Shown piece by piece: positions 51,564-53,995 of a stretch of DNA of 56,485 bases. Source of the stretch: Chitinophaga pinensis (GTDB lineage Bacteria; Bacteroidota; Bacteroidia; UBA4408); assembly GCA_945872355.1 (NCBI GenBank), contig CAMBZU010000001.1, positions 80,676 to 137,160 on the forward strand, written 5' to 3'. The stretch's first letter is position 1. Each line of letters starts with the position of its first letter. Under the pieces are notes generated by a model that saw nothing but the letters and a program-made list of their open reading frames with translations, was not told the origin of the DNA and searched no databases. Position numbers and translations under genes: made by a program.

Positions 51564-51587
51564 AGTTTTATAATTTAGGGCTAAAAT

Positions 51588-51622
51588 AAAAAAAGATAAT
51601 GAATTGTGTAGATTATCTTTTT
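51588..51622. repeat. Hairpin at left edge of the RAYT island (28-bp direct repeat)
   Basis: An 11-bp stem AAAAAGATAAT/ATTATCTTTTT with an 11-base loop, 26 bases upstream of the T9SS gene start. Bases 51579-51606 are identical to 52771-52799 except for one extra T, so the island between them is bracketed by a direct repeat. The stretch 51623-51801 between this and the first REP-like repeat holds nothing I recognise. Confidence 0.7.
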
Positions 51623-51801: not shown

Positions 51802-51854
51802 CCGCACTCGCTCGCGTCCCGCGAGTGAGCCTACCATGCGGGCTCCGACCGCTT
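51802..51854 (-). repeat. REP-like GC-rich repeat, type A copy 1
   Basis: 53 bp, 52 identical to 52081-52133. On the minus strand it reads GGTCGGAGCCCGCATGGTA then a hairpin CACTCGC-GGGAC-GCGAGCGAGTG. The GC richness stands out in this AT-rich DNA. Confidence 0.85.
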
Positions 51855-51925
51855 AAATAAAAGCAAATCAAGGTACGCAGATCTTTAGATGACATTATAG
51901 TGAAGTAAACCAAGATGCTTTTTAT

Positions 51926-51978
51926 ACAGGCCAGCCGCCTAAAGGTATCATCACGCGAAGGAGGCGAGCGATGGCTTA
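51926..51978 (+). repeat. REP-like GC-rich repeat, type B copy 1
   Basis: 53 bp, about 44 identical to 52724-52776: ACAGGCCAGCCGCCTAAAGG, then the hairpin core CACGCGAAGGAGGCGAGCGA. The core aligns with the type A hairpin when A is read on the other strand. Confidence 0.75.
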
Positions 51979-51990
51979 GGATTGTTTGAA

Positions 51991-52025
51991 TAAAAAAATG
52001 GTCGGAGCTTGTGCTACCGACCATT
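51991..52025 (-). terminator. Intrinsic terminator downstream of the ilvE relic
   Basis: On the minus strand AATGGTCGGTAGC (one bulged base) pairs with GCTCCGACCATT across a 4-base loop, followed by TTTTTTT and ATTC. Strong terminator 20 bases after the relic stop codon. Confidence 0.85.
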
Positions 52026-52045
52026 CAATAAATGAATTCAATATT

Positions 52046-52078
52046 TTAAATCTTCGTCAACCAGCCAAACTGATCATC
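52046..52078 (-). pseudogene. Relic of the last ten codons of a second ilvE
   Basis: On the minus strand it encodes DDQFGWLTKI plus TAA. The functional ilvE at 52943 ends DDQFGWLTRI plus TAG. Within the aligned 39 bases seven differ, all at synonymous positions apart from a Lys/Arg exchange and the stop form. The type A repeat begins two bases upstream of the relic and nothing else of the gene remains. Confidence 0.75.
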
Positions 52079-52080
52079 TC

Positions 52081-52133
52081 CCGCACTCGCTCGCGTCCCG
52101 CGAGTGAGCGTACCATGCGGGCTCCGACCGCTT
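52081..52133 (-). repeat. REP-like GC-rich repeat, type A copy 2
   Basis: Second copy of the 51802 repeat, one base different. It lies between the ilvE relic and the 3' end of the transposase gene, 13 bases from the latter's stop codon. Confidence 0.85.
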
Positions 52134-52146
52134 CAAGAAAAACATT

Positions 52147-52679
52147 TTAAAGTTCACACATTCTTAAGGGACTATCTGGGCAAGCGCTGCTATATACATA
52201 AGTTGTAGCATCATTAACAATTCCTGCAATTACCGGATTTTCATGAATGTAATTTACTTTTTGCAGGATGACATTATTGCTGAAGAGTTCCGTAGGATGA
52301 TTGGTATATTGCCACAAATGGTACTCATCGTATTGGCTATTTTTATTTGCAAAATAATTAAACTGATATAATAACCAATCTCTTCTGCTTTCTTGAGGGT
52401 TGTTAATTATTTCCTAATGAGTTTTTTAGAGGTCACACTTTTAAATCTTCCTAAAAGTTCAGTTAAATGAAGCTCGTTATTCCTTCTTGCAATAATATGT
52501 ATATGGTTCGACATAATTACGTAAGCAAAAATTTCTAATCCTTCTTTTTCCTGACAATGCTTTAGGTTTTCAACTAAAATTTGTTTGTAGCATTCACGAT
52601 CAAATAAGTTAATCCAACCCACAATAGTAAGAGTTACAAAATACAAACAATCAGGATATGTTTTTTTGTTTTCTGACAT
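52147..52679 (-). pseudogene. REP-associated tyrosine transposase (IS200-like Y1_Tnp), one-base frameshift
   Basis: The first 90 codons (52679-52410) encode the Y1 transposase N-terminal half: YFVTLTIVGWINLFDRECY, IFAYVIMSNHIHIIARR with the HUH-type His-x-His, and LLGRFKSVTSKKLIRK. That frame ends in TAA at 52409. One added A in the T/A run at 52410-52412 restores a continuous frame to a TAA at 52147, coding for NNPQESRRDWLLYQF, YHLWQYTNHPTELF, QKVNYIHENPVIAGIV and YVYSSAC, the C-terminal half of the same family. Full length would be about 177 residues. Repeats A and B in opposite orientations flank it, as in REP/RAYT pairs. The break may be real decay or a sequence error. Confidence 0.85.
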
Positions 52680-52723
52680 GGTGTAAAGATAAATATTAGC
52701 CTAAACAAATCTAATTTTTTCAC

Positions 52724-52776
52724 ACAGGCCAGAGGCCTAAGGGTATTATCACTCGCAGGATGCGAGCGATGGCTAA
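52724..52776 (+). repeat. REP-like GC-rich repeat, type B copy 2
   Basis: ACAGGCCAGAGGCCTAAGGG, containing a small GGCC-AGA-GGCC hairpin, then the core CACTCGCAGGATGCGAGCGA. The core differs from the type A core at two loop-side bases. It is 45 bases upstream of the transposase start. Confidence 0.78.
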
Positions 52777-52780
52777 AATT

Positions 52781-52817
52781 AAAAAAAGATAATGAATTGG
52801 TATCATTATCTTTTTTT
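52781..52817. terminator. Bidirectional terminator between ilvE and the RAYT island
   Basis: A 15-bp perfect stem A7-GATAATGA / TCATTATC-T7 with a 7-base loop. In either direction a T7 run follows the GC-containing stem. It lies about 125 bases after the ilvE stop and matches the hairpin at 51588 in its left arm. Confidence 0.7.
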
Positions 52818-52830
52818 ACATATTAAATTA

Positions 52831-52901
52831 TACCAATACAACTTGAAATTAGTACAATAAGGCTTTGCCGCAATTGGACTAAATTGAGAGTGTAATCGGT
52901 A
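52831..52901. repeat. Diverged palindromic-end element
   Basis: Begins TACCAATACAACTT and ends GTGTAATCGGTA, so its ends are inverted relatives of each other and of the ends of 43790-43912. The middle shares TGCCG...AAATTGAG with that unit. Weak relationship to the 51-bp repeat. Confidence 0.4.
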
Positions 52902-52942
52902 TTAGTGCTTAATTTAAATCATACTTGTGTTTATTACAAATT

Positions 52943-53995
52943 CTAAATCCTAGTCAACCACCCAAATTGATCATCTTTTTCTCCGCGTTTGTAGGCAAAC
53001 AAATGCTCGTACATTTTATTGGCAAAAGTTCTTTCACTAATAGGTGGTAATTCCATAATTAAATCTTTATGTCCAATAGTGGCAATGTGTGCAATATTGG
53101 CTGCAGTACCAACACCAAAGGCTTCTTTAACTTTTCCAGATTTATATTTTTCTAATAGTTCGGTCACTGTAACTTCTCTTTCTTCTACTTTTACACCCCA
53201 ATCGCGGGCAATACGTAAAATGCTATCACGCGTAATGCCAGCCAGCATGCTGCTGTGCAACGCAGGCGTAACTAAAACATCATCAAACATAAACATCACA
53301 TTCATACTGCCCGATTCCTCAATCACTTCATTGTTTACAGCGTCGGTCCACAACAATTGATGATAACCATGTTGTGCAGCCAATTTACTTGGATACATGG
53401 CGCCACCATAGTTTCCTGCTGCTTTTGCATAACCTGTTCCACCTACAGCAGAACGACTATATTTAGTTTCTACCCAAACTTTTAATGGCTCTAAATAATA
53501 GGCGCCAGTGGGCATGGTCATGATTATCAATTTATAATTTTCCGAAGGTTTAACACCAATCGCAGTATCGCTCGAAAACATCACAGGGCGCAAATACAAT
53601 GCTTGTCCTTCTCCAGTAGGAATCCATGCTTTATCTAAATTTACCAATTGCATAATACCATCAACAAAAATTTCTCTTGGAATGGCAGGCATACACATGC
53701 GTTCACCAGAAATATTCATGCGGTTAAAGTTATCTTCCATACGAAAGAAAATAACTTCATCTGCACTGTTTTTAAACGCTTTCATACCTTCAAAAATAGC
53801 TTGGGCATGATGCAAAGCACTTAAGGATGGGCTTAAAGAAATATCACCAAAAGGTACAATTTCAGGCGTTTGCCATGCACCATCAACATAATCAGCCACC
53901 AACATGTGGTCCGAAAAAATTTTACCAAAGGGAAGGTTATTGAAATCGACATCTTGGAGTCGGCTTTGAGCAACTTTTGAAGTTTTAATTGACAT
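52943..53995 (-). CDS. ilvE: Branched-chain amino acid aminotransferase
   Basis: 350 residues. A PLP fold-type IV enzyme that transfers the amino group in the last step of Leu/Ile/Val synthesis and the first of their breakdown. The PLP-binding lysine is Lys191 in GGTGYAKAAGNYGGAMYP. Other landmarks: HHAQAIFEGMKAFK (61-75), LYLRPVMF, EESGSMNVMFMFDD, LLAGITRDSI-like region (SSMLAGITRDSILRIARDW) and FGVGTAANIAHI. The domain order is that of IlvE of the BCAT group II. The C terminus (DDQFGWLTRI) has a diverged duplicate 900 bases downstream. Confidence 0.95.
   Translation of the reverse strand: MSIKTSKVAQSRLQDVDFNNLPFGKIFSDHMLVADYVDGAWQTPEIVPFGDISLSPSLSALHHAQAIFEGMKAFKNSADEVIFFRMEDNFNRMNISGERMCMPAIPREIFVDGIMQLVNLDKAWIPTGEGQALYLRPVMFSSDTAIGVKPSENYKLIIMTMPTGAYYLEPLKVWVETKYSRSAVGGTGYAKAAGNYGGAMYPSKLAAQHGYHQLLWTDAVNNEVIEESGSMNVMFMFDDVLVTPALHSSMLAGITRDSILRIARDWGVKVEEREVTVTELLEKYKSGKVKEAFGVGTAANIAHIATIGHKDLIMELPPISERTFANKMYEHLFAYKRGEKDDQFGWLTRI

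Follow-up and report, generated by a model that had tools for sequence, protein, structure and literature searches.

Two-hairpin REPs around a broken RAYT gene in Chitinophaga pinensis: probable remains of a Bacteroidota-type REP/RAYT system

Results

A RAYT pseudogene lies between two of four related repeats

We analysed a stretch of 56,485 nt from Chitinophaga pinensis (GCA_945872355.1, CAMBZU010000001.1), hereafter the window, in which a repeat-rich island occupies positions 51802-52776. The first-pass annotation of this DNA had placed four GC-rich repeats here, of type A at 51802 and 52081 and type B at 51926 and 52724, and these positions were borne out: the two A repeats are 85% identical over 86 nt and the two B repeats 84% identical over 58 nt. 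It had also regarded the two types as inverted relatives with a shared core, and indeed A1, B1, A2 and B2 can all be aligned in a single orientation over about 50 columns and thus form one family of about 50 nt, arranged on the plus strand as A1(-) B1(+) A2(-) B2(+). The features of the island are as follows.

51804-51853, minus strand: REP A1, bounding the mini unit on its outer side, downstream type (repeat comparison, alignment, covariance model)
51804-51975, minus strand: mini unit B1-A1 (172 bp), probably derived from the RAYT unit by internal deletion
51926-51975, plus strand: REP B1, with a decayed 3' hairpin, at the mini unit's upstream-type end (alignment, covariance model, folding)
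52036-52079, minus strand: copy (82%) of the 3' end of ilvE at 52933-52976, touching A2
52083-52132, minus strand: REP A2, downstream end of the RAYT unit (repeat comparison, alignment, covariance model)
52083-52773, minus strand: whole unit B2-RAYT-A2, 691 bp, with a second copy at G000:C14 28112-28803
52147-52406, minus strand: C-terminal part of the RAYT pseudogene, in another frame, with WQ and YIHENP motifs (translation; frame change set against the C14 copy)
52407-52679, minus strand: N-terminal part of the RAYT pseudogene, 90 aa, with the HUH motif NHIH (open reading frame, Y1_Tnp match)
52724-52773, plus strand: REP B2, upstream end of the RAYT unit (alignment, covariance model, two-hairpin fold as single-stranded DNA)

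A covariance model gave the four window repeats 60.8-74.5 bits, a score that is circular for these copies, with 11.3 bits for the next best place in the window; members of the family later turned up beside relatives of the gene in genomes outside the model. A chance origin of the four repeats, which we also considered, is ruled out by the repeat comparison, the model scores and this recurrence beside RAYT relatives elsewhere. The transposase had been described as bracketed by all four repeats; it does lie between repeats, namely A2 and B2, and only between those two.

The REP consists of two hairpins

Alignment of 66 distinct REPs from 17 genomes defined a 5' hairpin (GGCC-RGA-GGCC), a linker of mostly 9-10 nt containing TA, and a 3' hairpin (xTC-A-CTCGCx-RGA-xGCGAG-C-GAx). 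Changes on both sides of a pair occur at 9 of the 14 base pairs and are spread over both hairpins, so that the covariation supports the two-hairpin layout proposed for each repeat at first pass. Compensatory cells numbered 90, compared with about 19 in shuffles, and 92.6% of cells were paired, compared with at most 46% when the partners were slid; since this alignment was fitted to the structure, the compensatory counts lean towards it, and alignments made blind to the structure, of 13 and 26 copies, agree with it on fewer changes. The RGA loops are present in 57/66 and 58/66 REPs in the two hairpins, the linker TA in 58/66, and the A-C mismatch of the 3' stem is kept too (A in 62/66, C in 65/66). 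A GT[AG]G tag at the hairpin foot is not conserved among the 66 REPs, where GTA is found mainly in the window genome (G000) and its genus-mate G002 and ATA elsewhere. The GGGGWSAS motif of TIRtron TIRs is likewise absent from the REP consensus, and a search of Rfam brought no family close to threshold.

When folded as single-stranded DNA, B2 adopts exactly the two-hairpin structure, and none of 200 shuffles folded as well. B1 folds no better than shuffles (z -0.66) and has thus decayed, while A1 and A2 form the 3' hairpin and have a 5' arm able to pair otherwise. Because both hairpins carry RGA loops, the structure suggests that together they could serve as a bipartite binding site for the RAYT.

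The gene is a frameshifted RAYT with intact relatives that carry the same REP

The first-pass annotation had recognised a Y1-type transposase gene of the RAYT kind, and the 90-aa fragment does match Pfam Y1_Tnp (9e-08); what it had missed is that the gene is a pseudogene. Frame 1 ends after 90 aa and the remainder continues in another frame to about 52147, the result of a 1-nt deletion relative to the C14 copy, and hence the gene is broken, with its first 90 codons in one frame and the rest in another. Against NCBIfam REP_Tyr_transpos, intact relatives score 93-108 bits, over the cut-off of 80, and the window fragment alone scores 55.9 bits, below it; with the IS200 family model the scores were 22.9-26 bits, under its cut-off of 55. 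Sequence and fold comparisons, the latter with a structure model of moderate confidence, matched E. coli TnpAREP (4er8) and IS200/605 transposases.

Scanning with the 90-aa fragment, we found four intact Pontibacter RAYTs of 176 aa that are 63-70% identical to it over the first ~88 aa. These were reached by protein, and three further RAYTs, in G319 and G240 (61-62% identical) and in G204 (50%), were reached from the REP side. All seven have a REP in antisense upstream and a REP in sense downstream, and a model trained without Pontibacter still placed a REP on both sides of each Pontibacter RAYT, the upstream copy at L099, from Pontibacter mucosus, being weak. The REPtron-like reading of the first pass is thus supported by the Y1_Tnp match and by intact relatives, which pass REP_Tyr_transpos and have matching REPs in an identical arrangement. 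This arrangement also recurs, with weaker REP scores, around some RAYTs of about 50% identity; RAYTs below about 57% from the first scan are mostly without the present REP. Coevolution between REP and RAYT was weak over nine units, with a Mantel r of 0.20 (p 0.20) for upstream REPs and 0.59 (p 0.03) for downstream REPs.

With regard to motifs, the window protein has NHIH, WQ and YIHENP, with E at the variable place, and the Pontibacter proteins NHLH or NHMH and YIHQNP; the W of WQ is invariant and the Q varies (FWN, FWS, FWQ). By these motifs and by phylum, rather than by a tree, the window gene would belong to RAYT group 5 or TnpAREP subclass 2.6, the groups being those defined by Bertels et al. 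(2017), as given in PMC6006769.

REPs are dispersed at low copy number and partly occur without a close RAYT

The first covariance model was built from 13 copies and later rebuilds used more; E-values of these short-calibrated models are rough. Had the repeat been confined to the island, the REP reading would have fallen; the window genome has it at 13-16 places, with 16 from the first model at E<0.01 and 13-14 from the rebuilt ones under stricter settings. With the R3 model at E<=0.001 there are 13 copies in the window genome, 54, 17, 10 and 55 in the Pontibacter genomes and 32 in G240; levels in the window genome and Pontibacter are low compared with the usual >100. Among the 128 hits listed from outside the genus, close opposite-strand pairs had their 5' ends inside in 18 cases and outside in one.

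A further expectation, that relatives lacking a RAYT should lack the repeat, was borne out in part. The genus-mates G001 and G003 have no REP copies at the same R3 threshold, but G002 has 14 and no close RAYT. Since G002, like G000, is a draft assembly, this lack may be an assembly gap, and gene loss or such a gap is indistinguishable here from never having had a RAYT; the contig ends beside REPs in G002, inspected for a hidden RAYT, have flanks unlike the unit. Four other genomes (G242, G350, G372 and G056) also have REP matches with no RAYT match at 1e-25, and together with G002 they indicate that a detectable cognate gene is not required for REPs to be present. Across the class sample REPs occurred in 3/3 genomes with a close RAYT and in 10/392 others (Fisher p 3e-5), counts that ignore shared ancestry among 395 non-independent genomes drawn from a larger group and that come from a model trained on one of the three RAYT genomes. 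The order-level searches covered 8 family genomes only. Comparing G000 with G002, we found no common REP site within 1.5-kb flanks, which is compatible with turnover of the copies and is not proof of it.

The RAYT unit recurs with clean ends, and a mini unit lies beside it

The window unit (C1) aligns with the C14 copy over about 700 bp at 84%, and the similarity runs from REP outer edge to REP outer edge, to within ~10 bp, with unrelated flanking DNA. Both genes are broken, and differently so, the window gene by one frameshift and the C14 gene by two stops and a frameshift. Their dN/dS is 0.07-0.10 and their differences by codon position are 12/8/46, so that, with few replacements and mostly third-position changes, both genes appear to have been functional for most of their divergence. 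As both recognisable cognate copies are now broken, the family is probably no longer moving in the window genome.

A1-B1 has unit-like ends without the gene. Its A-side interior aligns with the C14 unit at a score of 34, where the best of 2000 shuffles reached 26, and the match covers 29 nt outside the REP, taking in the region of the gene's last codons. The B-side interior matches weakly (p 0.016 against C14, 0.32 against C1). Judged from these comparisons, the likeliest reading of A1-B1 is an internal-deletion derivative of a RAYT unit. The dead gene, the second A2-RAYT-B2 copy and this origin of A1-B1 are points absent from the first-pass annotation.

At least three further RAYT families, each with its own palindromes, are present in the window genome. 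One sister family comprises three units (C117, C8 and C3) that measure 670 bp from palindrome to palindrome. They align gap-free at 90-97% identity, and their flanks agree at only 41-51%; a fourth copy at C2 is internally deleted, and truncated copies occur at C3 and C2. These copies provide comparative evidence that whole RAYT units may have moved, short of observed transposition.

Discussion

In our judgement the island is quite probably what is left, in degenerate form, of a Bacteroidota-type REP/RAYT system, assigned by motif to group 5 or subclass 2.6. How such a system would work can be proposed by analogy. Since IS200/IS605 TnpA and E. coli TnpAREP are homologous to it, the HUH/Y1 enzyme would be expected to bind single-stranded DNA in which the REP has folded, probably at the replication fork, and, as deduced from those same enzymes, to cut beside the hairpins and rejoin the ends. 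Such cutting and joining could copy or move single REPs and REPINs (paired REPs), and in this lineage it could now and then act on a REP-RAYT-REP unit as a whole. Units that lose their interior by deletion would then become non-autonomous mini units, B1-A1 among them, which might be mobilised by an active RAYT elsewhere.

Three other explanations bear on different parts of this account. The repeats might be ordinary bidirectional terminators or RNA hairpins that are selected for transcript ending and stand beside a transposase by chance; they do lie at gene ends (downstream of ilvE), B2 folds well and there are further terminator-like hairpins nearby. We consider this highly improbable, since a 50-nt sequence including loops, linker TA and A-C mismatch is kept across genera beyond the needs of a stem, the REP flanks one type of RAYT in a fixed layout, close pairs favour one orientation by 18:1, and no regular T tract follows the copies. 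Instead of unit transposition, segmental duplication or homologous recombination could have produced both the mini unit and the two unit copies. REPs are themselves good recombination substrates, and some local rearrangement is suggested by two neighbours of the island, a 44-bp copy of the ilvE tail and a terminator-like repeat of 85% identity; yet the likeness between C1 and C14 stops at the outer REP edges, with unrelated flanks, and the sister family likewise has three 670-bp units in unrelated surroundings, which makes recombination a rather unlikely source of these copies.

The mini unit, for its part, could be a REPIN assembled from two single REPs instead of a deletion derivative. Gene-less REP pairs are common in relatives and the B-side interior match is weak, but the A-side interior beats every shuffle against the C14 unit, and A1 is of A type and B1 of B type, as in the full unit, so that we think this origin unlikely. 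We tentatively entertain a broader proposal, to which we give slightly less than an even chance: that Bacteroidota RAYTs of this type are still transposons, with bipartite-end recognition, movement of whole units and mini units arising by internal deletion. If true, this would lead directly from an IS-like ancestor to REPINs, against the published view that REPtrons are not mobile as units; in PMC3733652 and PMC6006769 REPtrons are described as not self-propagating, or mobility of class 2 genes as being without evidence.

Among known systems, the island resembles the group 5 or subclass 2.6 REPtrons of Bacteroidetes (PMC6006769) in phylum, in a length of 176 aa, in the NH[LIV]H and YIH[QN]NP motifs, and in flanking palindromes that have dispersed copies and no strict GT[AG]G tag. 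It differs from that account, in which the flanks are atypical and weak, by a conserved two-hairpin REP with RGA loops and by unit copies with matching ends. With the REPINs or BIMEs of E. coli and Pseudomonas and their TnpAREP it shares inverted REP pairs, an imperfect stem and an HUH/Y1 gene beside REPs, whereas the second (5') hairpin, TA in place of GTAG, tens rather than hundreds of copies and more than one copy of the RAYT unit in the window genome set it apart. Small Y1 transposases and hairpin ends are also found in IS200/IS605 elements (IS608, ISDra2), but the ends here are inverted REPs that also occur alone, and the protein falls under the IS200 cut-off and over that of REP_Tyr_transpos. 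TIRtrons (PMC3733652) likewise have a RAYT-like gene flanked by terminal palindromes that are inverted and also occur dispersed, but their TIR motif GGGGWSAS is missing here; 20 of the 26 described TIRYTs fall in subclass 2.1 (PMC6006769).

What appears to be new is a bipartite REP for a subclass recorded with 'atypical' ones, along with comparative evidence that points to whole-unit movement. A protein insertion has been noted for subclass 2.6, and a two-hairpin REP whose loops are of one type provides a clear hypothesis of what this insertion might bind. These points touch on two open questions: by what path insertion sequences gave rise to REPs, and whether RAYTs have been domesticated or retain mobility. 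The window genome contributes clean-ended unit copies and a probable deletion derivative beside its parent, and the relatives offer intact genes with REPs few enough to track.

Further observations concern the other RAYT families and the surroundings of the island. In the sister family (L067, L068, L069, L072) the upstream and downstream palindromes differ, and the truncated copies at C3 and C2 have a common breakpoint between ...TATGTC and GCAGTA. Other RAYT families have palindromes of their own, one shared by L066 (C71) and L062 (G003) and another by L070 (C91) and L061 (G002:C253); at L061 the different RAYT element has fragments of the present REP family on both sides, as might result from insertion into a copy or a REP pair. 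Downstream of ilvE, the corresponding regions of G002 and G003 have neither the unit nor the ilvE-tail copy and are too diverged to fix the junction. In the window the 82% ilvE-tail copy lies directly outside A2 and is followed by a terminator-like hairpin on the minus strand. A/T-rich terminator-like hairpins that are 85% identical lie on either side of the island, at 51583-51622 and 52776-52815, and 52848-52918 belongs to a further dispersed repeat, which recurs at L017 (4479-4533), L041, L043 and, in G002, L049.
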